A stretch of 64,000 nt of DNA, taken from NCBI GenBank assembly GCA_017534535.1, contig JAFXVZ010000004.1, forward strand, positions 40,251-104,250, written 5' to 3'. The notes beneath the pieces are model-generated. The model had not been told where the DNA came from. It did no database searches and saw only the letters and a program-made list of their open reading frames with translations. The stretch's first letter is position 1, and every line of letters starts with the position of its first letter. This document shows, piece by piece, positions 1,372 through 56,617 of the stretch. The DNA comes from Bacteroidaceae bacterium. GTDB lineage: Bacteria > Bacteroidota > Bacteroidia > Bacteroidales > Bacteroidaceae. A program made the position numbers and the translations under genes.

Positions 1372-3387
1372 ATGAGTAAAACATCGCTTCTCGCTATAGT
1401 CAGTTTGGCATTGTCCATGCTGGCTATGGGAGTTGCTGCCCAGACACTTCCTTCTACTGCCGTAAACGATTCTGTAGAGTTGGAACCCATTGTAGTGACA
1501 GCATCTCATTCGCCTAAAACGTTGAAAGACGTACCTGTGGTTACGCGTCTCATCACCCTCCACGATATCAAACTGACTGATGCTACCAATATTCAGGACA
1601 TGCTTACGCAAGAGATACCCGGACTGGAGTTCGGCCTTGCTATGAGCCAAGAGACATCACTCAACATGAGTGGTTTTGGCGGCAATGCTGTCCTCTTCCT
1701 GGTAGATGGAGAACGTATGGCAGGAGAAACGATGGACAATGTTGACTACAACCGCATGAATCTCGACAATGCAGGACGTATAGAGATAGTGAAGGGGGCA
1801 TCATCAGCACTCTATGGCTCAAATGCTGTAGGAGGAGTAATCAACATCATAAGTCAAGAGAATCTTGACCCCTGGGCTATCAATGTAAACTCTCGCTATA
1901 ATACGTTTGGACACGAATGGCGCAACGGAGCCAGCTTCTCATTCAACACCGCGAAATGGAACTCACAGACAAGTTTACAGCATACCAAAATTGATCCTGT
2001 CAATCTGCCAAAGGCACACTCTTCCGAAGAGATTGCCACTGAACTGATGAAGAAGGCACAGGGCTTGCCTTACGATGAGTCAATTCTGAATGATGACTCC
2101 AATATAAGCCGCCTGTATGGACAGAAAACTTACAACATAAAGGAACGGTTGATATGGCGTGCCTCTGATAATCTCACGCTTACAGGCAGGGGTAGTTATT
2201 TCTTCCGCACCAGCGAACGTGATACTTACGACTATCATTTCAACGGCTACGGTGCAGGATTGAAAGGCAAGTACGCGTGGAAACACGACAGCTATCTGGA
2301 ACTGTCATACGCATACGACCAATATGACAAGGCCAACTTCATGCCAAATGGTACACGTACCCATGACCACGACTATAGCAATAGACAACATGTGGCACAT
2401 GCCCTGTTCCACCATTCGTTTGGCAAGAACAGTCTCATCGTGGGAGCCGACTACCTGCATGATTATCTCACCACTTATCAATTCATAGACAACACGGCTC
2501 ACACCCAGAGCAATATCGATGGCTATGCACAGTTCGATTGGAACATCACTCCACAACTGAACATTGTGGGCAGCATGCGTTATGATTATTTCTCTGCTTC
2601 AGCAAAGCAGGCTCTCACCCAGCGTCTTGCCTTGGTGTATAAATTGCCGTTCATGACCCTTCGAGTCAACTATGCCAGTGGTTTCCGAGCCCCCACCCTC
2701 AAGGAAATGTATATGCATTTTGACATGGGCAATATGGGCTATATGATCATTGGCAATCCAGACCTGAAACCAGAGAAGAGCAACAATATCAATCTCGCTA
2801 TTGAGCGCACACACCGCATACAAAAAGGCGGATTACTGGATGGAACCTATAGCTTTACCCTCATGGGCTATTGCAACATCTTTGACAAGCGCATCACCAC
2901 TATCGACGGGGGGTTATACGAGGGTATGGAAAGCGCAGTATACTGGAACGAAGATGGAATCACGGTATGGGGTGTAGATGCCAGCCTTGGCTATGTCATG
3001 AAAAACGGCTTGTCACTAAGGTACAACTATTCATGGATGCATGAAACTGGCAATGTCTATTTCTCACAGTTCTCACAGCCTCGTTCACATTCCATGACCT
3101 GGCGCATAGGCTACAGCCATCGTTTTTCGCGCCACTATGCTCTCGATGCAGCTCTTTCTGGTCGCAGTCTTGGCAAACCGCAATCGGGTCGTAAGGATGT
3201 TGACCAGGGTTATACTATCTGGAAACTAATGTTACAGCATCAATTATGGAAAGGCATCCGTCTTAATACTGCCATTGACAATATCTTTAATTTCAAACCT
3301 AAGGCCTATTACTACTCTTCTCCACTCACTACAGGTACCTCCTTCAGCATAGGTCTATCAATTGATGTGGCAGCTCTAGGCGCGTAA
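1372..3387 (+). CDS. TonB-dependent outer membrane receptor, heme-type motifs
   Basis: About 671 residues. A signal peptide ends near AAQ, followed by a plug domain (IVVTASHSPKTLKDVP, then GRIEIVKGASSALYG, typical of the BtuB/HmuR class) and a 22-strand barrel ending in a hydrophobic strand. Between about residues 438 and 465 it has FRAP, a His (MYMHFD) and NPDL. That is the FRAP/NPNL box arrangement known from heme receptors such as HmuR, so heme or another tetrapyrrole is the likeliest cargo. I prefer the ATG at 1372 over an in-frame GTG at 1363 because it begins a normal signal peptide. The upstream lipoprotein probably acts with it. Cobalamin is an alternative ligand, but there is no riboswitch here. 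Confidence 0.8.
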   Translation: MSKTSLLAIVSLALSMLAMGVAAQTLPSTAVNDSVELEPIVVTASHSPKTLKDVPVVTRLITLHDIKLTDATNIQDMLTQEIPGLEFGLAMSQETSLNMSGFGGNAVLFLVDGERMAGETMDNVDYNRMNLDNAGRIEIVKGASSALYGSNAVGGVINIISQENLDPWAINVNSRYNTFGHEWRNGASFSFNTAKWNSQTSLQHTKIDPVNLPKAHSSEEIATELMKKAQGLPYDESILNDDSNISRLYGQKTYNIKERLIWRASDNLTLTGRGSYFFRTSERDTYDYHFNGYGAGLKGKYAWKHDSYLELSYAYDQYDKANFMPNGTRTHDHDYSNRQHVAHALFHHSFGKNSLIVGADYLHDYLTTYQFIDNTAHTQSNIDGYAQFDWNITPQLNIVGSMRYDYFSASAKQALTQRLALVYKLPFMTLRVNYASGFRAPTLKEMYMHFDMGNMGYMIIGNPDLKPEKSNNINLAIERTHRIQKGGLLDGTYSFTLMGYCNIFDKRITTIDGGLYEGMESAVYWNEDGITVWGVDASLGYVMKNGLSLRYNYSWMHETGNVYFSQFSQPRSHSMTWRIGYSHRFSRHYALDAALSGRSLGKPQSGRKDVDQGYTIWKLMLQHQLWKGIRLNTAIDNIFNFKPKAYYYSSPLTTGTSFSIGLSIDVAALGA

Positions 3388-8989: not shown

Positions 8990-9910
8990 TTAATCTATCA
9001 TCTCAAACACTTTCCCCTCATCAGCCAACAGAGTATTAGGAAATATGGATTTGGCCTCTTTAAGCAACTCATTCTCATCCGTATATCGTGCAGAGAAATG
9101 CCCTATAACGAGCCTTTTCACTTCAGCATCTTTAGCAATCTGAGCAGCTTGTAAGGTGGTGCTATGGAAGTGTTTTTCTGCTTTCAAAGCGTCTTCTGCG
9201 GCATAGGTAGCCTCGTGGTAAAGCAAATCCACTCCCCTCACCTGCTCAACAATCTCAGGTGCATACTTGGTGTCAGAACAGTAAGCATAGCTGTGCACTG
9301 GTGATGGATCAGTGGTAAGTTTTTCATTGGCAATTACCACACCATCAGGTTGCACAAAATCCTCTCCTGCACGAATATTGTTGATGTAAGCAATAGGTAT
9401 CTCATATGCATCAATCATATCACGTAGAATATGTCTTAGTCCCATTTTCTCCTCAAACAAGAAACCGCAGGTGGGTACCCTATGTTTCAAGGGGATAGTA
9501 GTGACTGTAAGCGTACGATCCTCAAAGATTACGATAGGGTTCTCAGTATCAAATTCATGGAAAAACACCTGATAGGTCATGTCGTAATTACAATAGTCCA
9601 TGATGGGCTTCATCATCGTCTCAAGACCTTGAGGACTATAGATGTGAAGCTCTGCCGTACGTCCTTGCAAGTTAAAGGTGGATATCAGGCCTGGCAATCC
9701 GAACCAATGGTCACCATGCAGGTGTGAGATGAAGATATTGTTCAGGCGGTTGAAAGGAAGTCGATTCTTACAGTACTGCATCTGTGTTCCTTCGCCACAA
9801 TCTATCATAAACAGCTTGTCACGCACGTTCAGCACCTGCGAAGAAGGGAAATGCTTCAACGTGGGTTTGGCTGAGCCACAACCTAATATCGTCAGTTCAA
9901 ACTTTTCCAT
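8990..9910 (-). CDS. rnz: Ribonuclease Z (tRNA 3' processing endonuclease)
   Basis: 306 residues, normal for the short form of RNase Z. This metallo-beta-lactamase fold enzyme trims the 3' trailer of pre-tRNAs lacking encoded CCA. Seen: LGCGSAKPT at the N-terminus, the zinc motif HLHGDH at about 61-66, further ligands in PLKHR, YCSDTKY and HEATY, and GHFSARY near the C-terminus. It has its own strong promoter embedded in the terminator of the upstream rpsA gene. Confidence 0.93.
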   Translation of the reverse strand: MEKFELTILGCGSAKPTLKHFPSSQVLNVRDKLFMIDCGEGTQMQYCKNRLPFNRLNNIFISHLHGDHWFGLPGLISTFNLQGRTAELHIYSPQGLETMMKPIMDYCNYDMTYQVFFHEFDTENPIVIFEDRTLTVTTIPLKHRVPTCGFLFEEKMGLRHILRDMIDAYEIPIAYINNIRAGEDFVQPDGVVIANEKLTTDPSPVHSYAYCSDTKYAPEIVEQVRGVDLLYHEATYAAEDALKAEKHFHSTTLQAAQIAKDAEVKRLVIGHFSARYTDENELLKEAKSIFPNTLLADEGKVFEMID

Positions 9911-21653: not shown

Positions 21654-21681
21654 ATGACGCGTTGGCACGTTGGCACACGGG
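21652..21681 (+). repeat. GCGTTGGCACG repeat, copy 1
   Basis: AAATGAC followed by GCGTTGGCACGTTGGCAC and ACGGG. It contains two tandem TTGGCAC units. It is one of five copies confined to 21.6-31.6 kb, and begins at the stop codon of the DUF4298 gene. Confidence 0.85.
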
Positions 21682-21779: not shown

Positions 21780-22310
21780 TCACTCTTTATTTAAATTGGT
21801 TCCTAAAATATTCCCAATTGCAAAATAAAAGAACAGCGGTCTTTCTTCCGCATTCTCCTTTTCCAGCTCTTCCAGTAACTCGTCAAACTCATGACAGTCA
21901 AATCTTTGCTGCAAATTCTCAACATTCTCCCTGGTTATTTCAATCAAGGAATTCTCAGTACATTCAACATCCAGGAACCAAGAATTGTTGTAATTATGGA
22001 AGTGAATCTTATACACTGGCCGCATCGCATTCGCAAACTCATCGAATGCTTCCATATCCATACCTTCGTCATCACGATGCTCATCCATCCATGCACATAC
22101 AGCCTTATCAGTCAACCGGTTCAGATAGTGGTCACTAAAATTGCGTATCTCCACCTTCTTCTCGCCAGAGAGAATTGCTTGGGCATACTCCTTACGCATA
22201 ATCAGGTCAAGAACCTCAATACCCTTAGGCTCTGGAACCTGATACTTAGCCAAAAACTCATCCTTAGCAGCAAAATACTGCTCATCTGTCATTTCTGCAT
22301 ACTTATTCAT
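21780..22310 (-). CDS. ASCH/PUA-like protein under WYL-type box
   Basis: 176 residues. The core [20 protein letters not shown] followed by [16 protein letters not shown] is an ASCH-domain-like pattern (PUA-related fold; members bind RNA or act on modified nucleosides, such as the ac4C amidohydrolase YqfB). The second half is acidic and ends in [18 protein letters not shown]. The promoter carries the palindromic box shared with three other transcripts in this region, and the gene is divergent from the WYL regulator. The family call is moderate, and no catalytic residues can be assigned. Confidence 0.55.
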
Positions 22311-22354: not shown

Positions 22355-22392
22355 TGCAAAATTAACCAGAGGTTGTCCTAAATCGTGGTACA
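22355..22392 (-). promoter_or_regulatory. WYL-type box promoter 1
   Basis: Read on the minus strand: box TGTACCACGATTTAGGACAA (22392-22373), then TAATTTTG (22364-22357). The box has dyad symmetry (TGTnCC...GACA) and starts 28 bp before the -7 element, identical to boxes 2-4. It covers the place of the -33 element. Confidence 0.75.
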
Positions 22393-22424
22393 CCTTTCGT
22401 TTTTTTTCTTTTCTGCCACTTCAT

Positions 22425-22456
22425 TTTGTTTTATTTCAATAATAGTTCTATCTTTG
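22425..22456 (+). promoter_or_regulatory. Promoter of the WYL regulator gene
   Basis: TTTG (22425-22428), 20 bp, TATCTTTG (22449-22456), a canonical promoter. Box 1 lies ~57 bp upstream of it, so autoregulation from there is possible but at a different spacing. Confidence 0.8.
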
Positions 22457-22483
22457 CCTTAGAAAACAAAGAAAGAAATACCC

Positions 22484-23422
22484 ATGAAAACACCTGCATT
22501 ATTCAGAGAATACATCTGGCTCATAAACACCATCCGTAAAGCCGGACAAATCACGTTGGACGACATCAACGAAAGATGGTTGGAGTCTGAGCTCAGCGAA
22601 GGAGTAGAAATAGCCCGTTCAACCTTCAACCGCCACAGAGATGCCATCCTCGACATATTTGGCATAATCATCAGTTGCAACAAGAAAAACGGTTACAAAT
22701 ACTATATCGAAAACGAAGAAGTGCTAAGAGAGAACACAGTGCAGAACTGGATGCTCTCCACCCTATCCGTCAACAACATCATCAGTGAAAGCATCTCCTT
22801 GCAAAACAGGATATTACTAGAACCCTTAGCACACGAGGAACGATACCTCCCTGTGGTGATCGAGGCCATGAAACGCAGTGTCCGCATTGCCATCAAGTAC
22901 AGGAAATATGGAGATGTCGAACCTAAGAACCTGAACTTCGAGCCCTATTGCCTGAAGCTATTCCATCAGCGATGGTACGTTCTTGGTCATTTCCATCGTG
23001 ACGTGAAGAATGGTCCAGACATCGATTTCTTTGGCATGTTTTCCTTCGACCGCATCTTGGAGATGTCAATCACCGATATCAAGTTCCAGATGAACCCGGA
23101 TTTTGATGCAGAGGAATACTTCCATGACTGTTATGGTGCCATTGTCAACGATGACACTAAGGCACAGAAAGTTGTTATCCGCGTATTTGACTTTGAACAA
23201 TATTACACCAAAGACCTCATGATGCATCACAGCCAGCATGAAATCGGTCATGGCGAGGACTACACCGACTTTGAACTATTCCTGCGTCCGACCATCGATT
23301 TCACCCGTCATCTTGTCGGTCTTGGCGACCGGGTAAAAGTACTATCACCTAAATGGTTGGCTGTTGAAGTATGCAATGAGCACCTCATGGCCTCCGATTT
23401 ATACGAAGGATTGATAGAATAG
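22484..23422 (+). CDS. WYL-domain transcriptional regulator
   Basis: 312 residues. The N-terminal helix-turn-helix region (1-70: EYIWLINTIRKAGQITLDDI, ARSTFNRHRDAILDIFG) is followed by a WYL domain (about 130-200: IAIKYRKYGD, FEPYCLKLFHQRWYVLGH with WYV in place of WYL, FSFDRILEM) and a C-terminal WCX-type domain (VVIRVFDFEQYY, DRVKVLSPKWLAVEV). WYL domains bind nucleic acid or nucleotide ligands and switch repressors or activators in phage defence, DNA damage and RNA repair loci. It sits in the middle of the box-bearing promoters, so it is the obvious candidate for the protein binding them. Confidence 0.88.
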   Translation: MKTPALFREYIWLINTIRKAGQITLDDINERWLESELSEGVEIARSTFNRHRDAILDIFGIIISCNKKNGYKYYIENEEVLRENTVQNWMLSTLSVNNIISESISLQNRILLEPLAHEERYLPVVIEAMKRSVRIAIKYRKYGDVEPKNLNFEPYCLKLFHQRWYVLGHFHRDVKNGPDIDFFGMFSFDRILEMSITDIKFQMNPDFDAEEYFHDCYGAIVNDDTKAQKVVIRVFDFEQYYTKDLMMHHSQHEIGHGEDYTDFELFLRPTIDFTRHLVGLGDRVKVLSPKWLAVEVCNEHLMASDLYEGLIE

Positions 23423-23434
23423 TTTTTTCTATGC

Positions 23435-23472
23435 TGTCCCATGATTTGAGACAACACCCCGTTATGTTTGCA
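23435..23472 (+). promoter_or_regulatory. WYL-type box promoter 2
   Basis: Box TGTCCCATGATTTGAGACAA (23435-23454), then TATGTTTG (23463-23470), with the same 28-bp phase as the other three. It controls the GIY-YIG-like gene and the ASCH-like gene after it. The 25 bases from 23435 are identical to box 3. Confidence 0.8.
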
Positions 23473-23495
23473 AACAAGTTAAAAAATATAAGAAT

Positions 23496-24329
23496 ATGAA
23501 AGCAGATTTTGATTACACAATTGTTTATGTCTTCGGACCGGAAATTTGTGAAGACAAGTACTACAATGACGAGCTTTTGACTCGTGAAGCTGGAGAATGG
23601 GTTAAAATTGGTGAAACTGGTTTTCGAGGGAATATTGAAAATGTAACAACGGACATAATGAAAGACCAGTCAATGAAGCGCATTAATAATGAAAGTAGAA
23701 CAGGGATTCCTGTTATATCTAAAATCTATGATGTTTTCATTTTTCCCTATCACCAAAAAACGGATGACATAATTCGCAAACGTCTATGTGCAGAATTGTA
23801 TAATTTAGATAATAGCAAACAGATAAACAAACAATTAAAGGACGAAAAATACGTAATTAAAGCCGGAGATGAGTTTGTTTATGGTGTTTGTCGAAGCAAT
23901 ATAAAGTTTGCGGTTCAGTCATACGATCATGATCTTATAGCAAAAGCAGAAAACGATGAAGAAGTAAAAGTGATAGCCCAAATATGTCGCTGTAATGATA
24001 TTGACATTGATCGCAACACAGAGGAAATTGAAGATGTGGCATTGATTAAGAGAAAGCCCACTCTTGATTTAGACCTGATTCTATCCACAGGAGATGAAAT
24101 TATCCTTACTAATGGATTAGGTCAAGAAGTTCTCGACGCGAATAATAGTAAGATTACAGCTTATTATATTGGTGGGAATAAATTTGAGTGTAGAGATGAA
24201 ACAGGTAGGACTTCCTCTTTGGCAAAAAAATATTTAAACATGTATGGAGGTAAGAACCTAACAACCGTCAATGGGAATGAATACTGGACTTTTAAAGGCC
24301 AGAAGTTGACAACATTGCGTAAAAACTAA
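23496..24329 (+). CDS. Possible GIY-YIG (T5orf172-like) + RAMA-like protein
   Basis: 277 residues, not firmly recognised. The N-terminal half opens with YTIVYVFG and EWVKIGETG and continues SRTGIPVISKIYDVFIFPY and RKRLCAELY, reminiscent of T5orf172-like GIY-YIG nucleases (VYV...KIG-T). The C-terminus RTSSLAKKYLNMYGG, then GNEYWTFKGQKLTTLR, resembles a RAMA/DUF4357 module that accompanies methylases and nucleases. The gene is AT-rich compared with its neighbours, suggesting transfer. It is first in a two-gene operon behind a WYL-type box, 18 bp before the next gene. Confidence 0.4.
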   Translation: MKADFDYTIVYVFGPEICEDKYYNDELLTREAGEWVKIGETGFRGNIENVTTDIMKDQSMKRINNESRTGIPVISKIYDVFIFPYHQKTDDIIRKRLCAELYNLDNSKQINKQLKDEKYVIKAGDEFVYGVCRSNIKFAVQSYDHDLIAKAENDEEVKVIAQICRCNDIDIDRNTEEIEDVALIKRKPTLDLDLILSTGDEIILTNGLGQEVLDANNSKITAYYIGGNKFECRDETGRTSSLAKKYLNMYGGKNLTTVNGNEYWTFKGQKLTTLRKN

Positions 24330-24347
24330 AAGAAGTTCAAATAACCC

Positions 24348-24794
24348 ATGAGCTTAAAAGACGAAATACATGCTATTATGGCTGACCCCTCAAAATCTTA
24401 TGAAGACAAACGGGATGAGCTATTGAAATATATGACTCCGAAAGAGGTGTATGCCCTGCTACCAACGCCTAAAGAAAAAGTTCGGTTAAAAGAACATCTT
24501 GTATCCAAGCCGGAAAACATGCGTTTGCTTCGGTTATCTGTTAATATGCCTATCTTTGAGAGTGTCTTAAAAGGTAATCATGTGGAGCGTCGGGAATACA
24601 CAGAATACTATAAGAGTCGATGCACCTATATAGAGAATGGTGTAAGATATTTGGTCCCATTTGATGCTATAACCTTTTATGTCGGACATGGCTCACGAGC
24701 CAAAAGAGCAACCGTATCAATAAAGAATATAGTTTGCGATGGAGATTTTATCGACTTTTACTTAGGTGAAGTGCTTGACAATACTATTTTATAA
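24348..24794 (+). CDS. Second ASCH-like protein
   Basis: 148 residues. An N-terminal helical lead (LKDEIHAIMADPSKSYEDKR) is followed by LRLSVNMPIFESVLKGNHVE and RREYTEYYKSR, the same pattern (hydrophobic strand, VLxG, ExRxYTxYYxxR) seen in the ASCH-like protein at 21780-22310, then a beta-rich tail (ITFYVGHGSRAKRATVSIKN). ASCH/PUA-like folds bind RNA or modified nucleosides. It is cotranscribed with the preceding GIY-YIG-like gene. The two ASCH-like proteins are otherwise different, so this is not a simple duplication. Confidence 0.5.
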   Translation: MSLKDEIHAIMADPSKSYEDKRDELLKYMTPKEVYALLPTPKEKVRLKEHLVSKPENMRLLRLSVNMPIFESVLKGNHVERREYTEYYKSRCTYIENGVRYLVPFDAITFYVGHGSRAKRATVSIKNIVCDGDFIDFYLGEVLDNTIL

Positions 24795-24809
24795 TAAAAT
24801 CTGCTGGCT

Positions 24810-24847
24810 TGTCCCATGATTTGAGACAACACCCACTTAACTTTGCA
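24810..24847 (+). promoter_or_regulatory. WYL-type box promoter 3, for the tRNA-like RNA
   Basis: Box TGTCCCATGATTTGAGACAA (24810-24829), then TAACTTTG (24838-24845). The predicted start is near 24852, about 33 bp before the first stem of the structured RNA. Confidence 0.8.
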
Positions 24848-24884
24848 CCCATAAAGAAAAGAACAATTAACAAATTCGCTCCTG

Positions 24885-25021
24885 TCATTCATAGGGACAT
24901 ATATAGGTAAATACCTACCGTCTCATGTGAATGAACCTGATGATACGAGCAGAGCCATGATGTCGGAACAGAGGCCGCGAAAGCGAGATGAGTAGGTTCG
25001 AATCCTACCGCTCGTATCATC
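24885..25021 (+). ncRNA. Structured RNA with tRNA-like 3' domain
   Basis: The 5' module is a hairpin: TCATTCA (24885-24891)/TGAATGA (24928-24934), GGGAC/GTCTC and TAGGT/ACCTA inside. The 3' module is tRNA-like: a 12-bp closing stem GATGATACGAGC (24939-24950)/GCTCGTATCATC (25010-25021); a perfect T-arm GTAGG-TTCGAAT-CCTAC (24992-25008); a D-arm-like hairpin GCC/GGC with TCGGAA in its loop (24954-24975); and, in place of an anticodon arm, a 3-bp stem CGC-GAAA-GCG (24976-24985). No anticodon or CCA end is visible. Bacterial Y RNAs (YrlA) contain this kind of tRNA mimic with a reduced anticodon arm, so a Y-RNA-like RNA is the best guess. A degenerate tRNA is the alternative. Confidence 0.65.
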
Positions 25022-25062
25022 TTTATATTTGAAATAAGTGTTAATAAGAAAACCGAACTATC

Positions 25063-25680
25063 ATGACGACCGAAAGAAAACTAAATGGAATCTGGAATGC
25101 AGAGAGGATTCTGCATGAATACCTCTACTTTTCCCACCACACGCAGCATTTCAAAAAAATCGACCACACGGATGACTCTCCCAATGGCATCAGGATTCGG
25201 AGGTTCGATGCGGTTTTGAAAGCCTATGGGAAAGACGTGTCGGACTTCTGCGAGAACGGTTGGATCATCAGCCAGGCATGTTCGCAAGAGAGAATAGATG
25301 AGCTTCGCCAGCTACTCTCCCAATTTTCCGACGACTACACCATACAGAGATTGCTCAACCACCCCAGAACCTTCAGAAACGACAGAGACATCCGATACAT
25401 GTTTAGAGTACTATTCGAGTATAGAGTAGCACTTTACAAGGTAGAAGATTTCTGGTCAGGGCACATGGAGGGCACACAATCCGTCGCACTGGCCTATTAC
25501 ACCACCAGACAACTCTATGAAAATCATATCAAAGAAGTATGTGAACTCATAGACAAGCTGCTCGTATTGCTGATGGGAGATGATTTCGAGCGGTCCTTCA
25601 CAGAAGAGGAGCTACTCCCCTTCGGCTATCCCGACATCACCGATGACGAGTTGAGACACATGATAGTCGACAACTTTTGA
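25063..25680 (+). CDS. Unknown 205-residue protein behind tRNA-like RNA
   Basis: Not recognised. It is predicted mostly helical, soluble and charged, with no signal peptide and no membrane segment. Notable stretches are LHEYLYFSHHTQHFKKIDHT with four His, IQRLLNHPRTFRNDRDIRYM, and an acidic C-terminus (FTEEELLPFGYPDITDDELR). The start is 42 bp after the tRNA-like RNA, so it is probably the coding part of the same WYL-box transcript and may act with that RNA. A GCGTTGGCACG repeat follows the stop codon by 16 bp. Confidence 0.6.
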   Translation: MTTERKLNGIWNAERILHEYLYFSHHTQHFKKIDHTDDSPNGIRIRRFDAVLKAYGKDVSDFCENGWIISQACSQERIDELRQLLSQFSDDYTIQRLLNHPRTFRNDRDIRYMFRVLFEYRVALYKVEDFWSGHMEGTQSVALAYYTTRQLYENHIKEVCELIDKLLVLLMGDDFERSFTEEELLPFGYPDITDDELRHMIVDNF

Positions 25681-25696
25681 TTTATGTCCATGATAT

Positions 25697-25726
25697 AAAT
25701 GACGCGTTGGCACGTTGGCACACGGG
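25697..25726 (+). repeat. GCGTTGGCACG repeat, copy 2
   Basis: AAATGACGCGTTGGCACG then TTGGCACACGGG, between the converging ends of the 205-aa gene and the RhuM-PLD gene. Confidence 0.85.
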
Positions 25727-25737
25727 AACTATCCCCA

Positions 25738-26613
25738 TCATCGTATAATGCTGAGCAACTCTAAAGCAGAGGTCTCTTGCATCTTGATGAAAGCAAACAG
25801 CTTCTTCCCTGCATCCTTCAGGCTGGCACCAAACAAGTATGGCACATCGTCAATAATCAGGAAACGGTCATGGTTATGACGGCACACCACTACATTAATA
25901 GGAGGATATTGAGCGTTGTGCCTGGCCAGGTCCAACTGTTGTTGTGAGGTAAGTTGCCGAGTATGGATGGTAGCTGTAACACCAGCACCTCGCTTACTCA
26001 GCATCAGCAACGTACATTCGTCTATATAGTTATCCACCAATACAATAGAGGTCTTTGCCTGTTTAATGAGGTTAATAATCTGCACATAAGCATCAAAGAT
26101 TTGGCCATCATAGAAAACACCTTCAACTGGAGGTAAAGATGAACGGACAAAAAACTCGACTTGTTTCTTAAGTTCTGCAATATCAGCACCCTGCTCACCC
26201 ACTCTCTTTTCGATATCAATCATCCGTTGATTTATGACATAACCTTTTAGCAGATATTGTTTCAGGATGCCATTCGCCCATTTCCTGAATTTTGTACCGT
26301 TTAGGGATTTCACTCTATAGCCTACAGAAATAATCACATCAAGGCTATAAAACATTACTGGCTTGTCTGAATTTGTAATGTGCAAAATTTGCACATTGCT
26401 TTCTTCATCAAGTTCCCCCTCTTTAAACACATTTCTAATATGTTTGGAAATTACAGATCGTTCCCGAAGGAACAACATAGAGATTTGTTGTTGGGTCAGC
26501 CAAACGCTATCGTTCTCTACTCGTACCTCCAGTTTGACAGTTTCATCAGGTTGGTACATCACAATCTCGCCCTTTGTGCAATCCATTGCACCTTCATTCA
26601 AAGTTGGTTTCAT
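25738..26613 (-). CDS. RhuM-family protein with C-terminal PLD-like domain
   Basis: 291 residues from the ATG at 26613, chosen because a canonical promoter lies just upstream of it and inside the longer open frame. N-terminal RhuM/virulence-protein domain (about 12-130): GEIVMYQPDETVKLEVRVEN, DSVWLTQQQISMLF (HTH-like), FYSLDVIISVGYRVKS, FRKWANGILKQYLLKGYVIN. A coiled linker then a phospholipase D-like domain with RHNHDRFLIIDD and GASLKDAGKKLFAF follow. RhuM proteins accompany mobile and defence regions; the biochemical role is unproven. The PLD-like part is ~94% identical at DNA level to the next gene. Confidence 0.75.
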   Translation of the reverse strand: MKPTLNEGAMDCTKGEIVMYQPDETVKLEVRVENDSVWLTQQQISMLFLRERSVISKHIRNVFKEGELDEESNVQILHITNSDKPVMFYSLDVIISVGYRVKSLNGTKFRKWANGILKQYLLKGYVINQRMIDIEKRVGEQGADIAELKKQVEFFVRSSLPPVEGVFYDGQIFDAYVQIINLIKQAKTSIVLVDNYIDECTLLMLSKRGAGVTATIHTRQLTSQQQLDLARHNAQYPPINVVVCRHNHDRFLIIDDVPYLFGASLKDAGKKLFAFIKMQETSALELLSIIR

Positions 26614-26646
26614 TGTTATAAATGCTTTTAAAGTTCGTACTGGTTG

Positions 26647-26678
26647 CAAAGATACAACTATAATCTCATTCTCCCAAC
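26647..26678 (-). promoter_or_regulatory. Promoter of the RhuM-PLD gene
   Basis: On the minus strand GTTG (26678-26675), 20 bp, TATCTTTG (26654-26647). It has no WYL-type box. Confidence 0.65.
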
Positions 26679-26695
26679 AACTACTTGACTTTTTT

Positions 26696-26725
26696 AATGA
26701 CGCGTTGGCACGTTGGCACGCGGGG
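26696..26725 (+). repeat. GCGTTGGCACG repeat, copy 3
   Basis: AATGACGCGTTGGCACG then TTGGCACGCGGGG, 10 bp downstream of the 3' end of the second RhuM-PLD gene. It has one base change from copies 1 and 2 (ACACGGG to ACGCGGG). Confidence 0.85.
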
Positions 26726-26735
26726 ACTATCCCCA

Positions 26736-27527
26736 TCATCGTATTATGCTGAGCAATTCTGAAGCAGAGGTCTCTTGCATCTTGATGAAAGCAAACAGCT
26801 TCTTCCCTGCATCCTTCAGGCTGGCACCAAACAAGTATGGCACATCGTCAATAATCAGGAACCGGTCATGGTTATGACGGCACACCACTACATTAATAGT
26901 AGGATATTGAGCGTTGTGCCTGGTCAGGTCCAACTGTTGTTGTGAGGTTAGTTGTCGGGTATGGATGGTAGCTGTAACACCAGCATTTCGTTTACTTAGC
27001 ATCAGCAGCGTGCTTTCGTCTATATAATTATCCACCAATACAATAGAGGTCTTTGCCTGTTTAATGAGATTAGTAATCTGCACATAAGCATCAAAGATCT
27101 GTCCATCATAGAAGACACCTTCAACTGGAGGTAAAGATGAACGGACAAAGAAGTCAACCTTTGATTCAATCAAATTTATTCTCTCATTTTGGTTTTCAAA
27201 ACGCCTGTCAATATTGTTTTCCAGATATGTAAACCGCTGGTTAATAGAGACACCTTTCAGCAAGTAGTCTTTCAAAACACCATTAGCCCATTGTCTGAAC
27301 TCAATACCCTTTTTGGAATTAACTCTAAAGCCAACAGAAATAATAGTATCGAGATTGTAGAAAGTTAGAGTCCTTCGTACCCAACGATTGCCTTCTTGTT
27401 GAACTGTTCGGATTTTCCGAACAGTTGAATCCCTTTTCAGCTCTCCTTGTTCATAAATGTTCTTAATATGATCACTGATGTTTCCCTTACTAGACTGCTC
27501 GGAGAGTTTCTTCTTTCTGTCTAGCAT
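26736..27527 (-). pseudogene. Second RhuM-PLD gene, N-terminally truncated
   Basis: 263 residues. The RhuM domain begins late, at SKGNISDHIKNIYEQGELKR, after an aberrant MLDRKKKLSEQS. The ~35 residues with the WLTQ...F HTH segment are absent, and a TAA lies in frame directly before the ATG. The break coincides with the composite repeat that starts at ~27556. The rest (FYNLDTIISVGFRVNSKK, FRQWANGVLKDYLLKGVSIN, PLD motif RHNHDRFLIIDD) is intact, so a truncated protein could still be made. No promoter of the usual type is seen. Confidence 0.65.
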
Positions 27528-27556
27528 TTATTTAATGAACTAATGAATAATGACTT

Positions 27557-27780
27557 TTCGGAGCAGCGAGGGCAGAGCCAAGCTTGCTTGAGCTATGCCG
27601 AGTCGCGACGAAATTGATGCGAAGCAAAACGATGACCGTTTACCGTTGACCATTTACCGTTGACCATTAGATAAATCGCTCACGCTCGGGATAGTTCAAG
27701 CAAGCTTGAGTCTCCTCTCGCTTACTCGCGATTTTGACCGTTGACCGTTTAACGTTGACCGTTGACCGTTTAATGTTAAA
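27557..27780. repeat. Composite repeat: GC-rich module, TTGACC arrays, inverted copy
   Basis: It starts with a GC-rich module (GGAGCAGCGAGGGCAGAGC at 27560-27578, then GCTATGCCGAGTCGCGA), also found before trpF at 61710. Tandem units of GTTGACC and ATTTACC follow, then a diverged copy of the module in inverted orientation (27674-27732, with CAAGCAAGCTTGA against TCAAGCTTGCTTG), then more GTTGACCGTTT units. The inverted copies can fold into a long hairpin. Confidence 0.7.
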
Positions 27781-28285
27781 CTCCCCACCAGTTATGAGCA
27801 AGCTACGTCTGAAGGAACAGCCTCACTGTATTGGTTACCTGTCGCTTAGGGTGTATTCCTCCACTTCAACAAGAACTTCAGATTTTTTTTTTGCTGTTTT
27901 AGTTACATAGTTACACTATGCTTGATAATTAGTTGATACTTATTATGTTAATGCGAGTGTAACTTTTCTAAGAAGTTACACTAACATACACTACCATACA
28001 CTACCACCAAAACAAGTTGTTTTGGTGCGAGAGAATACTATCATGACACCTATCGGAAGCATTATAACGATACCAAAACAACTTGTTTTGGTGTGAGCGC
28101 ATTACTTTTTCCTGATGATGGAATCATGGTCTCGACTCTGACATTTGCCTATGTTTTACCTTTTAGCAAGCATTTTTTGCCAAATTAGTGTAACTTTATC
28201 AAAAAGGTACACCGCCGTAAATTGTTAATAAACAATAACTAACTCAAAAAGTGTAACTATGTAACTTTTTTCATAAAAAAAAAAT
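27781..28285. other. Gene-free stretch with palindromes
   Basis: No gene is seen. It holds ACACTACC-type direct repeats (27987-28006), two copies of a 21-bp palindrome, and AT-rich sequence leading to the promoter of the Rpn remnant. Confidence 0.5.
28005..28093. repeat. Pair of 21-bp ACCAAAACAA palindromes
   Basis: ACCAAAACAAG then TTGTTTTGGT (28006-28026) and ACCAAAACAAC then TTGTTTTGGT (28072-28092) are each other's reverse complement, differing only in the central base. They lie 66 bp apart, upstream of the Rpn-type gene remnant. Confidence 0.75.
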
Positions 28286-28316
28286 TTTGAGTAGCACTCG
28301 GCTTGCACTATCTTTG
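28286..28316 (+). promoter_or_regulatory. Promoter of the Rpn-type remnant
   Basis: TTTG (28286-28289), 19 bp, TATCTTTG (28309-28316). It is intact although the gene behind it is broken. Confidence 0.75.
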
Positions 28317-28356
28317 CAAAAGATAATTAGTTTATTCACTAATAATGCTTCAAAAT

Positions 28357-28744
28357 ATGAAAGGAAAGTTTATCAACCCTTCTGAACAATATGGAAAAAC
28401 TTGACAAGATGCCTTTTACGGACAAGAATCCCGCTTTTGTGGAATTGATTGACCTTGCCACTTACCAGAACATGAGTGAGGACGAGCAGGTGGCCTACGA
28501 CCGTTCGCTGAAGCGGATGTGGGACTATGACAACATGCTCCGCGGTGAGCGTGAGTATGCGATGGCTGAAGGTGAGGCAAGAGGTGAAGCAAGAGGTAGA
28601 GCTGAGGGTGAGGCAAGAGGTAGAGCTGAAGGTGAGGCAATGGAGAAAGCCAAAATTGCTAAGAATCTGAAGGGTCTGGCTGTGCCTATTGAAATCATCG
28701 TCCAGGCATCAGGCCTTACAAAAGAACAGATAGAAGAACTTTAG
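28357..28744 (+). pseudogene. Rpn/PD-(D/E)XK transposase-like gene with internal deletion
   Basis: The intact promoter leads to an ATG at 28357 encoding MKGKFINPSEQYGKT and a stop. FINP is the family N-terminus that normally continues into the nuclease domain. In another frame from 28391, the last ~117 residues of the same family follow (LDKMPFTDKNPAFVELIDLA, YDRSLKRMWDYDNML, then an EGEARGRA repeat tail ending GLTKEQIEEL). The ~180 catalytic residues between are gone, so it is an internal-deletion pseudogene. A short protein could still be made from 28391. A terminator follows. Confidence 0.7.
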
Positions 28745-28773
28745 GACATGGACCTATCTACCTGTAAACGACT

Positions 28774-28800
28774 AAAGCCTCTGCGGATTGCAGAGGCTTT
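28774..28800 (+). terminator. Terminator after the Rpn remnant
   Basis: AAAGCCTCTGC (28774-28784) and its exact complement (28790-28800) around GGATT, ending in TTT. Confidence 0.8.
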
Positions 28801-28914
28801 AATGTTTCCAAAATTACGCAGCACTTAGTTTAGGCAATAGTATAGGAGTTGGCACAAAATGAGTATAAAATGAACAGGGGAATCCTCAGTCAACAGATAT
28901 AGCACTCCCCTATT

Positions 28915-30096
28915 CTATCTCCAAAATCCGAAGATGCCTTTGCCTTTGGACTTTTCCGCTTCAGGCATGATATCGGATGCCTCGATGCCGTCCATGTCAT
29001 CCACAAAATCTTCTGGCTCAGCGGATTTGTTCTTCGACATCTTCTTATAGGCCTTCTCAAACCCCTTCATCGCCCAAGTCAGTCCTGTGTTCCCCAGTTG
29101 GGTGGGAATCTCTGCCAGGAGGAGAGGAACCTGAGTCAGTGCCTTCATCTTGGCTTTCAGCTTGGCAGTCCTTCCCTTGGCTCCCTTGAGCTCTTTAGAA
29201 CCCTTCTGGAGATAGTATTTCGTGATGTATCCGATGGCGATGGTCATGATGCCATTGGCAAGTCCGTCGGCAAGGGGTGCCAGAGGGATGCCCGGCAGGT
29301 TCAAGTTCCTGACGTACTGGGTGAAGTCGATGTTCGAGGCATCGATATCGGGTATCTCTACGTCGCTCACATCGATATCAACGTCAACATCATCCACGTC
29401 CGAGAGGGCATCTACGGCAGACTCAGCCACACCTTGGAAGAAATAGCTCAGGAAGGCGGAGCTGATGACATAGTAGTAAATCTTTACCAGCTGTATCTTG
29501 TTGGGACGGAAACCAGAGGATTGGACAATGTCAGAGATCATCCGATAGTTCAGACCCAGGGTTGCCAAGGTATCGATTCTGTTGCTGGAGGAGATGGCCG
29601 TAATGACGAAGACCTTGGTGGCATAGGTGATGATGTGCTTATCTACGGCACGATACCTTTGCTTCAGCTCGTCGTTCAGGATGCTTTTGAGCTGACTGAT
29701 GTCCTGAGTGGTTGCCACATCAGCCAAGGCGGTCTTCAGTTCTGCCTGACGGTCAGCCCTTTTCGACGTGGGCATATAGTAGCAATTGTTGCACAGCTTA
29801 TCACCAAACGCCATCAACTGCTTGCGGTAGGCTTCTTCACTCAAACCTTTATCATTGTCCTGAACCGCCAGCACAGGGAATTCTGGAGCGTTGTGTATCT
29901 TCATCATGGGTTGCAGGATGGCGAGATAGACGAGGTAGGTGAACAGGACGAGCAGCAGCAGGTAGAACGCATACTCGAGATAGGGAACACCTATTACCGC
30001 CGTCATTTTCTCACCTATGGTGATGACATTGCCCAGGATCACGATGACGGTGATGAGGACAAAGAGTGCTATGGTCAGATACAGTACTTTTTTCAT
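28915..30096 (-). CDS. DUF697/YcjF-like membrane protein
   Basis: 393 residues. Two N-terminal membrane segments (4-27 and 37-62) and a cytoplasmic DUF697-like part (about 175-230: VFVITAISSSNRIDTLATL, LNYRMISDIVQSSGFRP, VKIYYYVISSAFLSYFFQG) resemble the C-terminal domain of YcjF and of GTPase-associated membrane proteins. A very acidic stretch at about 232-256 has alternating DVD/DID units. A third hydrophobic segment follows near 275-295, then a Lys-rich tail. The family commonly partners a dynamin- or Era-like GTPase, but none is adjacent. The function is unknown. Its leader has palindromes at 30121-30152 and 30178-30192. Confidence 0.6.
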   Translation of the reverse strand: MKKVLYLTIALFVLITVIVILGNVITIGEKMTAVIGVPYLEYAFYLLLLVLFTYLVYLAILQPMMKIHNAPEFPVLAVQDNDKGLSEEAYRKQLMAFGDKLCNNCYYMPTSKRADRQAELKTALADVATTQDISQLKSILNDELKQRYRAVDKHIITYATKVFVITAISSSNRIDTLATLGLNYRMISDIVQSSGFRPNKIQLVKIYYYVISSAFLSYFFQGVAESAVDALSDVDDVDVDIDVSDVEIPDIDASNIDFTQYVRNLNLPGIPLAPLADGLANGIMTIAIGYITKYYLQKGSKELKGAKGRTAKLKAKMKALTQVPLLLAEIPTQLGNTGLTWAMKGFEKAYKKMSKNKSAEPEDFVDDMDGIEASDIMPEAEKSKGKGIFGFWR

Positions 30097-30177
30097 GGTG
30101 CCATTTGTTATGTTAGCTGATGCAGGGATTTACCCATGCATTTTACCCTGCAAATAAAATCATAATTCTCGAATAAA

Positions 30178-30192
30178 ACAACTGGCAGTTGT
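30178..30192. promoter_or_regulatory. 15-bp palindrome before DUF697 gene
   Basis: ACAACTGGCAGTTGT has 7-bp arms around a central base and lies ~80 bp before the start codon of the DUF697-type gene, in the upstream promoter region. It is a possible operator. Confidence 0.35.
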
Positions 30193-30217
30193 ATTTATTT
30201 ATGAGTTTTTGCATTGG

Positions 30218-30244
30218 CCCGTGTGCCAACGTGCCAACGCAGCA
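30218..30244 (-). repeat. GCGTTGGCACG repeat, copy 4
   Basis: Reverse orientation (CCCGTGTGCCAACGTGCCAA then CGCAGCA), 10 bp downstream of the ADP-ribosylglycohydrolase stop codon. Confidence 0.85.
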
Positions 30245-30254
30245 TAAGGTTAAA

Positions 30255-31496
30255 CTATATCTTTATTCCTGCGGGTTGCATGTCACAATAGCGGTCAAGC
30301 CATTGTTGCTTCGCTGGAGTTCTATCATAGTCATATTCACTGACGATGCAACCTTGATGCAGATCATCTGCCACAGCGAGGATGACATCATGCAATTCCA
30401 AGTTCTGCTTGAATCGGGCAGGAATGGCTTCATATCCGATGATTGCACCCAGAATATTACCTGCTACGGCTCCTGTTGAATCACTGTCACCATCGTGATT
30501 TACAGAGGCTATCATGCAATCGGCAAAGTTGTCGATATGACGGGATACGGCATAGAGGGCGATGGCTAATGTTTCTTCCGCTACCCAACCTTCACCCAGT
30601 AGTCGGATGTTGTCAATGTCCTCAGCATCGTTCTCTGCCAGCAGCAGGGCTTTCTTCAACAGACTACTCAGGTATTGGATATCCTTGGGGAAGACCGCGC
30701 CGAAAGGCTTGTCGGCCGGCCACGTCAACTCTGAGGTATGGATATTATCAGGCATCACCATGGTGGGCAACATATCCAAGGCTTCGTCAACCATCTGACG
30801 CAATCGTTCTCGCTGGCTGTCAGGCTGCAAGGCCTTGAATCCCGCTTCACCAAGTATGCGATAGATGACATGAGTCATGACCATTGCAGGCATCCATCCC
30901 AAAGGATGCTTGTGGGTCAAGCGGGCTATCTCACCACCTGCCATATCAATCATCTCAATACTCATGTTATGACGCTGAGTAGCACAAAGCAGGGGCCAAG
31001 GTGCCACACGCATCACCCCACCACAACCCTTGCTGTCGTTCTTGGGCGTACGGCTGTGGATGATATCCTCAATGGCCGACATACAGGTGTAGCCTGGTGC
31101 CCTGCGAGCATATAAGGTGGGGATGGCACTGAGCCAAGTGTGACGAGAATGTTTCTCATGCCGGCTGGCATCCATAATGTCGTGATAGGTTCTGGTCTGG
31201 GTATAGTACCAATCCAAGTAGGCCGCAAGCACATAGAAATGGGGCTGACTGCCAATGCCACGCATATAGTGGCGCGTCAAACCCATGAGCATGCCATTAG
31301 CCGTGAAGAGAGTCATTTGCGTATCGTCGCTAATCAATGCAGCCCCTCCTCTCAGTTCGTAATCCGTGATGCCAGGATGACCGTATTTCTGCAGAATCTG
31401 GTTGTAACGCATGAACTCTACGGTATAGCCCAATGCATCACCTGCGGCTCCACCAATCAAGGAACCACGCACTAAATCTTTCTTTTCTTGTTCCAT
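30255..31496 (-). CDS. ADP-ribosylglycohydrolase (DraG/ARH-like)
   Basis: 413 residues. It matches the ADP-ribosylglycohydrolase family: RGSLIGGAAGDALGYTVEF, ISDDTQMTLFTANG (metal-binding ST/DD motif), RVAPWPLL, TLAIALYAVSRH and NHDGDSDSTGAVAGNILGA (second metal motif). Such enzymes remove ADP-ribose from arginine, serine or nucleic-acid targets. It is longer than minimal DraG (~300), with insertions around the active site. Its promoter carries the shared WYL-type box, and repeats 4 and 5 flank the gene. It probably reverses ADP-ribosylation as part of the same response; the target is unknown. Confidence 0.85.
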   Translation of the reverse strand: MEQEKKDLVRGSLIGGAAGDALGYTVEFMRYNQILQKYGHPGITDYELRGGAALISDDTQMTLFTANGMLMGLTRHYMRGIGSQPHFYVLAAYLDWYYTQTRTYHDIMDASRHEKHSRHTWLSAIPTLYARRAPGYTCMSAIEDIIHSRTPKNDSKGCGGVMRVAPWPLLCATQRHNMSIEMIDMAGGEIARLTHKHPLGWMPAMVMTHVIYRILGEAGFKALQPDSQRERLRQMVDEALDMLPTMVMPDNIHTSELTWPADKPFGAVFPKDIQYLSSLLKKALLLAENDAEDIDNIRLLGEGWVAEETLAIALYAVSRHIDNFADCMIASVNHDGDSDSTGAVAGNILGAIIGYEAIPARFKQNLELHDVILAVADDLHQGCIVSEYDYDRTPAKQQWLDRYCDMQPAGIKI

Positions 31497-31522
31497 CTGT
31501 ATATTGTTTTTAGTTATTCAGC

Positions 31523-31560
31523 TACAAAATTACGATTTATTTGTATCATATCGTGGTACA
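31523..31560 (-). promoter_or_regulatory. WYL-type box promoter 4
   Basis: On the minus strand: box TGTACCACGATATGATACAA (31560-31541), then TAATTTTG (31532-31525), same phase as boxes 1-3. This copy has the best dyad (TGTAYC...GRTACA). Confidence 0.75.
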
Positions 31561-31592: not shown

Positions 31593-31616
31593 CCCGTGTG
31601 CCAACGTGCCAACGCG
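31593..31616 (-). repeat. GCGTTGGCACG repeat, copy 5
   Basis: Reverse orientation (CCCGTGTGCCAACGTGCCAA then CGCG), upstream of the ADP-ribosylglycohydrolase promoter. It is the rightmost copy in the window. Confidence 0.85.
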
Positions 31617-31852
31617 GCATAAGTAATAACCCACATATCGAGAAAATAACTCTCCCACAAGAATTATTCCTACAAAAAGGAGTGGTTTATTCAGAATTTA
31701 TGTTTACCTTTGCTTTGTTATGTACGATTCTGCTTGTTTTTTTAATTGCAGCACTAAGGCAAGTGATAATCTGACATGACAAAAATCCTTGGCTTTTTGT
31801 TGCTCAGGAACTTATAAAGAAAGTAAACTAAAGTACTGCGGAATATGGTGAT
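31617..31852. other. Intergenic stretch at right edge of accessory region
   Basis: No gene is recognised. A 77-codon open frame starting at 31541 runs through the repeat and has no family features. No clear promoter for the next gene is seen. Confidence 0.4.
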
Positions 31853-36238: not shown

Positions 36239-36269
36239 TTTGTCGATTCAATCAAAATAACTACCTTTG
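36239..36269 (+). promoter_or_regulatory. Promoter of the cobalamin riboswitch transcript
   Basis: TTTG (36239-36242), 19 bp, TACCTTTG (36262-36269), exactly on consensus. It is divergent from the cobQ promoter 15 bp away. Confidence 0.85.
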
Positions 36270-36283
36270 CAATCGGAATTGGC

Positions 36284-36445
36284 AACCAGTCGTTATCATG
36301 CGTCTGGTGCAAGGGAATCAGGTGAAAGACCTGAGCTGTTCCTGCAGCTGTAACCCTCAGAATGAGGTCTGCATCTACAAGTGCCACTGTTGCCCTGTGC
36401 AATGGGAAGGCCCTGCAGACCGAGGGAAGCCAGAATACCTACCTT
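36284..36445 (+). promoter_or_regulatory. Cobalamin riboswitch
   Basis: The conserved core is visible: GGTGCAAGGGAA, then CAGGTGAAAGACCTGAGCTG, then CCTGCAGCTGTAACCC, and the B12 box AAGCCAGAATACCTACC (36427-36443; consensus AGTCAGGATACCTGCC). It binds a cobalamin and shuts off the downstream receptor, chelatase and probably corrin synthesis genes. The 70-bp leader after the B12 box holds no strong hairpin plus T-tract apart from GGTTTTTTT at 36495, so control may be at translation. Confidence 0.9.
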
Positions 36446-36514
36446 TTCCAAACAAAAATAGACAAAGCTTCCCAGGAAAGGGGCGATGAATGTCGGTTTT
36501 TTTAAACTAATTGT

Positions 36515-56435: not shown

Positions 56436-56463
56436 CAGTGTAAAAATGTAGAAAATGTAAGTT

Positions 56464-56526
56464 ATGAAACATTCAATGGTAAATATGTATTGGTGGTGGC
56501 GCCCGTTAAGATTCCTAGAGTCGTAA
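56464..56526 (+). CDS. trpL: trp operon leader peptide
   Basis: A 20-residue peptide, MKHSMVNMYWWWRPLRFLES, with three consecutive Trp codons (TGGTGGTGG at 56491-56499). Ribosome stalling at these codons when tRNA-Trp is uncharged would disturb the downstream hairpins and let transcription continue into trpB, the classical attenuation logic. The codons for SMVN (TCAATGGTAAAT) match a unit of the window's short repeat family. Confidence 0.9.
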   Translation: MKHSMVNMYWWWRPLRFLES

Positions 56527-56580
56527 GGGGAGCAGCGCTCGTATGTACATATTCTACCTCACATGATTAGGATAAAGACG

Positions 56581-56617
56581 AAGCCCTGTCGCAACTTGCG
56601 ACAGGGCTTTTCTTTTT
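56581..56617 (+). terminator. trp attenuator terminator
   Basis: A 13-bp stem (56581-56593 with 56597-56609) around a 3-base loop, rich in GC (GCCCTGTCGC), ends in TTTCTTTTTT. It lies 55 bp after the leader peptide stop and 34 bp before trpB. Confidence 0.9.

Follow-up and report, generated by a model that had tools for sequence, protein, structure and literature searches.

What do four promoters in one stretch of a Bacteroidaceae chromosome have in common that they carry the same DNA element in the same phase, and which protein reads it? The stretch, hereafter the window, comprises 64,000 nucleotides of contig JAFXVZ010000004.1 (assembly GCA_017534535.1). The element is a 20-bp box, TGTnCCAyGATwTnnnACAA, which precedes an ASCH-like gene, an operon starting with the gene of a 277-residue protein, a tRNA-like RNA and an ADP-ribosylglycohydrolase gene; a gene for a WYL-domain regulator lies among them. 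Comparison with other genomes supports a single regulon with the WYL protein as its likely binder. We consider it probable, though well short of certain, that the box is the operator of one DriD-like WYL activator that controls a genome-wide, strain-variable regulon of defence and repair genes together with tRNA-shaped RNAs.

A scan of the window returned exact matches to the box at 22392-22373 (minus strand), 23435-23454 (plus), 24810-24829 (plus) and 31560-31541 (minus). With up to three mismatches allowed, the pattern occurs six times against 2.9 expected, and the matches other than these four all have three mismatches. A TAnnTTTG element starts at position 29, counted from the box start, in every one of the four, so the identical boxes and their common phase, first noticed in a reading of the sequence only, are exact. 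That reading also called the box palindromic, a description that fits the family consensus and only partly the four window copies. The units of box and -7 element are 22357-22392 (minus, promoter of the ASCH-like gene, with TAATTTTG at 22364-22357; 45.7 bits), 23435-23470 (plus, TATGTTTG at 23463-23470; 47.4 bits), 24810-24845 (plus, TAACTTTG at 24838-24845; 52.2 bits) and 31525-31560 (minus, TAATTTTG at 31532-31525; 33.6 bits, the weakest of the four). These scores, spanning 33.6-52.2 bits, come from a matrix built from 117 sites, the four window boxes among them; five mononucleotide shuffles of the window gave one match at -1.7 bits, the sole one above -5.

The source genome (G000; 2.7 Mb, 49 contigs, 89% complete) holds five exact boxes, all with TAnnTT at position 29, and the exact phased box was found neither in a reversed-pattern control nor in 60 relatives of this genome. 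The fifth site (G000:C5:195936) lies outside the window on another contig, bears TAAGTTAG and precedes a gene for a protein that looks PUA-like by eye and weakly matches a leucine-rich-repeat adhesin. The remaining 13 matches in the genome, with one or two mismatches, have no TA at position 29 and are near background, because the reversed pattern, searched without phasing, also yields 8.

Across genomes, the box consensus is the near-palindrome TTGTCCCA-YGATT-TGGGACAA, placed 8 bp ahead of the -7 element, and the 117-site matrix reads TGTCCCAYGATTTGRGACAA-N8-TAWYTTTGCA. The palindrome is completed by a T just before the matrix consensus (52% of sites) and a G at position 15 (36%). Several positions left free in the search pattern are conserved, namely T at 12 (91%), G at 14 (97%) and T and G at 35-36 (94% and 99%), and spacer positions 24-28 hold just 0.03-0.14 bits. 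The proposal that the box takes the usual -33 position is borne out: a -33 element was found in none of 44 box promoters.

A relaxed phased pattern, scanned over one genome per species for 84,980 species, matched at least 116 stretches. Among the 116 matches listed, 107 are in Bacteroidota, mostly rumen and gut Prevotellaceae and Bacteroidaceae; these include a few Candidatus genera that we take to belong to the phylum. The other nine, which include Pseudoalteromonas, Scalindua, Nitrospirae and cyanobacteria, are at chance level, because about 7 matches are expected at random (an estimate assuming equal base frequencies), and the five off-phylum loci among 80 of the listed matches all lack TTTG. 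Viral contigs gave two phased matches, both without TTTG, which we take as chance. In 18 rumen and gut Bacteroidales genomes, selected for carrying the box, the pattern with at most one mismatch found 70 sites, 1 to 11 per genome, against none for the reversed pattern. Prevotella ruminicola KHT3, for instance, has one exact site and three with one mismatch. Among the papers listed by an exact-motif search of the literature, none holds either full motif; they contain an 8-mer and look unrelated by title.

The WYL gene (22484-23422, plus) encodes a 312-residue protein in which Pfam finds a WYL domain (35.2 bits) and, under its cut-off of 23.9, a WCX domain (21.6 bits); together with a winged helix-turn-helix (wHTH) domain this is the wHTH-WYL-WCX architecture of DriD-like activators. 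Linkage between the regulator and the box was examined in three ways. Among 301 sampled genomes of the family, our own included (62 box sites; the sample overlaps the 18-genome set, and metagenome-assembled genomes are among the samples), a close WYL orthologue (E 1e-84 or better) occurs in 44 genomes, the box in 37 and both in 23; that is, the box is present in 23/44 genomes with the orthologue and in 14/257 without it (Fisher p 3e-13). In 393 genomes of the order, again including our own, a WYL protein at least 50% identical is present in five, three of which carry the box (p 1e-5); the other 388 have a box-like match in two, as does the reversed pattern. When WYL loci were fetched by protein alone and a box was counted as a matrix match of at least 22 bits within about 1.5 kb, 25/34 loci of close orthologues had one versus 0/45 for other WYL genes, whose best score was 14.9 bits. 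The box matches are therefore not spread at random; they track the WYL orthologue, and all three samples support the WYL protein as the likely binder.

The box label also follows phylogeny. A FastTree tree of 109 distinct WYL proteins, covering 111 of 112 loci, places 36 of 39 box-labelled rows inside one clade of 52; in an IQ-TREE analysis of 65 of them, a single clade of 34 with support 100/99 takes in 26 of the 27 so labelled. Seven WYL genes of the 18-genome set are themselves behind a box, six as the first gene of the operon and one as the last. In G587 and G611, which have the box and no close orthologue, the box is in the promoter of a WYL gene that is 40-41% identical. Separately, a 44-46% WYL relative in genome G039 (L049:7394-8781, minus) stands beside a gene that looks HIRAN-like by eye, with no detectable box nearby; it is perhaps the same system with a diverged box. 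WYL relatives at 22-40% identity occur in six phage records.

The nearest fold to the predicted WYL structure is DriD (14-16% identity), the Caulobacter WYL activator of a non-SOS DNA-damage response that senses single-stranded DNA (ssDNA); a PDB search with the sequence of the WYL protein gave no match. Like DriD, the system has a pseudo-palindromic 20-bp site over a poor -35 region (here the -33 slot) at several promoters of a genome, with WYL binding suggested by co-occurrence. Unlike DriD, the box is phased to a Bacteroidetes -7 element, and the targets that can be named consist chiefly of defence systems, DNA-repair genes, HIRAN proteins and tRNA-like RNAs. SiwR, reportedly, is like PafBC a mycobacterial WYL-domain regulator, and CapW is said to be a WYL regulator of phage-defence genes. 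PafBC shares the WYL domain. The available part of one source describes mycobacterial PafBC as an activator at promoters without the usual -35 contact (PMC11804915), and there the heterodimer reads a -26 motif with one HTH, unlike the palindrome and single gene found here. BrxR, as the accessible text presents it, is a WYL regulator of phage-defence genes (PMC9122601); in the descriptions available, BrxR and CapW act at single defence islands, unlike a multi-locus regulon, and their similarity to our protein appears weaker. The Bacteroidetes S24-family SOS regulators, which govern umuD/dinB-type genes in the same phylum, are not WYL proteins. We rejected a LexA-like SOS operator, as the box consensus differs from the motifs CTAA-N5-TTAG and GGA-N5-TCC given in the available portion of PMC8565304.

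The genes behind boxes in other genomes indicate what the regulon does; the target list consists of annotated genes, with one or a few sites per kind. Exact boxes precede a type I-C CRISPR system with Cas3 and Cas7 (L253), the N-terminal part of Cas12a (L251), an HD-DEAD protein that is truncated by a contig end and homologous to the L253 Cas3 (L216), GmrSD (L240), and SNF2 and PLD helicases with an Eco57I methylase (L220, L257). An AddB-like PDDEXK protein with an AddA-like helicase, the latter below the NCBIfam cut-off, also follows an exact box (L228), and homologous pairs occur in L259 and, behind a box with one mismatch, in L247. Boxes with one mismatch precede UmuD (L261; 147.6 bits, cut-off 110), AIPR and SIR2 as second genes (L218 and L263), UDG and PDDEXK_4 as second and third genes (L267) and, 250 bp downstream, a radical-SAM/DUF4130 repair pair (L237; TIGR03916, 642 bits). 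In the 18-genome set, six genes for HIRAN-type proteins (a sequence cluster, one of them Pfam-tested) are behind boxes, and ASCH-like and PUA-like proteins recur there.

The sequence-only reading had suggested a response to RNA damage or nucleotide modification. As a theme this is unsupported, because most nameable targets are CRISPR-Cas, restriction, nuclease-helicase, DNA-repair and HIRAN genes; it survives as an RNA-repair part, represented by RtcB next to tRNA-like RNAs in four genomes. Judging from the sequences, the better theme is defence together with DNA repair, in which RNA repair, and with it the earlier idea, occupies a corner.

Some boxes are followed by other kinds of sequence. 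Short hydrophobic open reading frames (26-106 residues) stand alone behind boxes in L217, L218, L220, L222, L223 and L224, are conserved within the pairs L218/L220 and L223/L224, and could be stress-induced membrane peptides. Three boxes without a gene (L230:8498, L238:9662, L245:7968) precede stretches of about 100-150 nucleotides with terminator-like hairpins and, by eye, no open reading frame, possibly small RNAs; Rfam found nothing above cut-off in six loci with gene-less or late-gene boxes. The box locus L119 holds the Bacteroidetes FopS small RNA (3105-3175; Rfam RF04319).

The tRNA-like RNA (24939-25021, plus) founds a family of covarying RNAs. It has a 12-bp acceptor stem, a D-like arm with GG, a T arm GTAGG-TTCGAAT-CCTAC and a T-rich 3' flank; where a tRNA would have its anticodon arm there is a 3-bp GAAA hairpin. 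ARAGORN does not call it, and the Rfam tRNA model (RF00005) gives 17.7 bits, below the threshold of 29. Folding of its leader places a hairpin at 24885-24934 (plus) ahead of it; the whole 184-nucleotide leader has a folding z of -4.5, and none of 200 shuffles was equally stable. With the window RNA as its sole input, a covariance model detected relatives in three of 55 other box loci (L225, L226, L265) and in four of 291 family genomes, our own included, all four with a close WYL orthologue. An improved model matched 5/100, 5/74 and 6/85 box or WYL-orthologue loci, with some places identical between sets, and none of 73 control loci (411 kb).

In total, the family has 16 distinct members in 12 genomes. 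The sequence of the acceptor stem varies, yet pairing is kept in 95% of cells, with changes on both sides at all 12 pairs; none of 500 shuffles reached the observed values, and in slid controls 92% fell to 36-44%. The D-like stem is weaker (76% paired). These values come from an alignment fitted to the model; in a plain MAFFT alignment of nine members the acceptor arms match by eye in most rows. A box on the same strand lies within 4 kb upstream of 13 of the 15 members examined, and the sixteenth (L265:8931-9015) lies 54 bases past a box at 9069, which brings the count to 14/16 and supports the tRNA-like RNA as a real regulon member; the two without an upstream box are in L394 and L172. In 12 of the 16, at most 250 bp separate box and RNA, and no open reading frame of 70 codons intervenes. 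The 3' flank opens with at least three T, in some after one C, in 13 of 15 members, so stem and T-run may together end transcription. The family is a covariation-supported noncoding RNA that our searches did not find in Rfam 15.

In G673, G609, G585 and G607 the RNA lies behind a gene for RtcB, identified by Pfam in G673 (370 bits) and by reading the sequence in the other three; upstream of it, in divergent orientation, is a second WYL gene (confirmed by Pfam in G673 only). The box sits between RtcB and the RNA in G673, G609 and G585. Behind the RNA come tRNA-Phe in G585 and G607, as well as tRNA-like genes of odd length, which Rfam calls in G673 and G607 and which are seen by eye in G585; G609 has no such array. 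A RING-family protein, for which a PDB sequence search returned nothing, is encoded downstream in G673, with a homologue by eye in G585.

The arrays behind the RNA and RtcB (L368:1655-2279, plus; L394:795-214, minus; L370:1392-1320, minus) deserve description. L370 and L394 contain tRNA-Phe genes, and L368 and L394 have five tRNA-like genes of 117-123 nucleotides with an insert of about 50 nucleotides in the anticodon arm, separated, by eye, by repeated stems with GGTCAAG ... CTTACTTC ... CAATTACC. They look like a polymeric array of tRNA or Y-RNA-like units. An array behind another family member gave one weak YrlA match (28.9 bits, threshold 69).

A precedent exists in Salmonella, where, according to the part of the source available, tRNA cleavage linked to DNA damage is accompanied by the induction of both RtcB and a Y RNA that resembles tRNA; the tRNA-like part of YrlA, it is proposed there, might compete with a tRNA nuclease (PMC7790460). 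Like YrlA of the rsr-yrlBA-rtcBA operons described there, our RNA is noncoding, has a tRNA-like part, occurs beside RtcB and may be damage-linked. Unlike YrlA, it has a 12-bp acceptor-like stem and a WYL box instead of RtcR control; the window RNA gave no match to Rfam YrlA (RF02553) at E up to 5, and TROVE/Rsr was not found in its genome, itself 89% complete. The precedent makes a similar role the natural first guess, though by Rfam the RNA is not YrlA.

How might the system work? The box overlies the -33 slot of promoters in which a -33 element is missing. We infer that, most probably, a WYL dimer switched by a nucleic-acid ligand such as ssDNA from DNA damage or phage replication, would bind there and let RNA polymerase start at phage-defence and DNA-repair genes, often including its own. 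The short RNAs, without an anticodon arm, may protect or service tRNAs while enzymes that cleave tRNA or repair RNA are at work. A more specific form of this proposal is a LexA-independent WYL damage programme in which CRISPR-Cas and other defences and DNA repair are joined by an inducible RNA, essentially a tRNA elbow of acceptor stem and D and T loops that may terminate itself, acting as decoy or cofactor to protect tRNAs under phage attack; this we regard as unlikely in its full detail.

Several observations weigh against DriD-like activation of one WYL regulon. The -33 element is absent by construction under the box, so its absence favours activation only moderately. The window WYL gene has no phased box of its own and an ordinary-looking promoter (TTTG at 22425-22428, 20 bp, TATCTTTG at 22449-22456). 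Full-length alignments to DriD have a high root-mean-square deviation (10-12 A), and R181 of PafB, which contacts ssDNA, has no obvious counterpart in a by-eye alignment. The expectation that the box keeps to genomes with the WYL gene is mostly upheld, yet 14 of 37 box-bearing family genomes have no close orthologue; 12 of them also lack a nearby sister WYL gene with a box, among them three genomes (G669, G695, G785) that are 97-98% complete. Conversely, 21/44 genomes with a close orthologue show no box at up to one mismatch, and 9/34 close-orthologue loci have no matrix match of 22 bits. The boxes of UmuD, radical-SAM, AIPR, SIR2 and UDG are inexact, and 14 of 40 Pfam-scanned box-operon proteins match no family at E 0.01. 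When 56 first genes behind boxes were set against 56 drawn at random from the 192 other genes in those loci, PADLOC families matched at E 1e-10 numbered 84 against 16, figures that count families, not proteins, and one helicase matches many; the control genes include two WYL genes, a SIR2 and a few defence-family matches.

The same WYL protein and regulon could also operate by repression in the manner of BrxR and CapW, with a dimer on the -33 region blocking polymerase until a phage or damage signal arrives. BrxR does repress defence genes, as far as the available text describes it (PMC9122601), the box lies across the core of the promoter, and the WYL gene frequently has a box of its own in front, as in autorepression. 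Against this, the box promoters have no -33 element (0/44), the fold and profile of the WYL protein appear nearer to DriD and PafBC than to BrxR and CapW, and a blocker would not need base-exact phasing to the -7 element; we consider repression somewhat unlikely. It is more doubtful still that the box belongs to another factor or an alternative sigma factor, with the WYL gene a frequent regulon member. Box genomes without a close WYL gene, the WYL gene's own place among the targets and the fixed, sigma-like spacing to the -7 element would fit; the 25/34 against 0/45 of the protein-picked loci, the single WYL clade, the box variant before the sister WYL genes of G587 and G611 and a palindrome suited to a dimeric wHTH protein speak against it. 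Although site number varies between genomes (1 to 11), a mobile repeat spreading by insertion before genes is hardly credible, given that conservation extends over the 20-bp box and the -7 element with only a few bases alongside, that the spacer is nearly uninformative and that many nameable downstream genes are functionally alike.

The proteins behind the window boxes are less easily named. The 176-residue ASCH-like protein (21780-22310, minus) matches Pfam ASCH only below threshold (E 0.0015; 19.6 bits, cut-off 21.2); homologues follow a box elsewhere (L226:10554-11078; a cluster of four in the 18-genome set). The 277-residue protein (23496-24329, plus) was called GIY-YIG-like, which Pfam does not find: it has no convincing family, and the label rests on inspection and a weak MUG113 match in the neighbour of another WYL gene. 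PADLOC PDC-S57 matches its residues 210-276 (4e-6), and a PDB sequence search gave weak, unrelated matches only. The 148-residue protein of the same operon (24348-24794, plus) is ASCH-like by eye and has a homologue in box operon L243. The transcript of the tRNA-like RNA also encodes a 205-residue protein (25063-25680, plus), poorly modelled (predicted local distance difference test 49); a relative of 26% identity stands behind a box elsewhere, in a genome where the RNA does not accompany it, and a search of 158 genomes of the genus gave no further one. Viral contigs hold no relatives of the 205- or 277-residue protein, and a plasmid blastn search with the RNA and the 205-residue gene gave no match. 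The ADP-ribosylglycohydrolase (30255-31496, minus; Pfam, 194.7 bits) has a counterpart behind a one-mismatch box in G182 (L227; 108.1 bits), with a helicase. The window's own gene set includes no CRISPR gene.

Other features of the window are a repeat, TGACGCGTTGGCACGTTGGCAC or its complement with differences at the ends, in at least five intergenic copies by eye (21655-21676, 25700-25721, 26698-26719, 30223-30244 and 31598-31619), and two adjacent RhuM-type genes (25738-26631 and 26736-27527) with nearly identical C-terminal halves, apparently a duplication with differing N-termini. A cobalamin riboswitch (36263-36460) and a Bacteroidetes tryptophan leader RNA (56444-56590) are both ordinary.

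Many phage-defence and DNA-repair genes and tRNA-shaped RNAs thus appear to stand under one box, which moves together with one regulator gene. A single regulator seems to tie unrelated defences (CRISPR I-C and V-A, GmrSD, AIPR and AddAB-like systems) to DNA repair chromosome-wide, across rumen and gut Bacteroidales, as a stress programme that may be read from the genome. The box would offer a direct route to predicting when these defence systems are on, and it may reveal new defence genes among uncharacterised targets such as the HIRAN, ASCH and PUA-like proteins.

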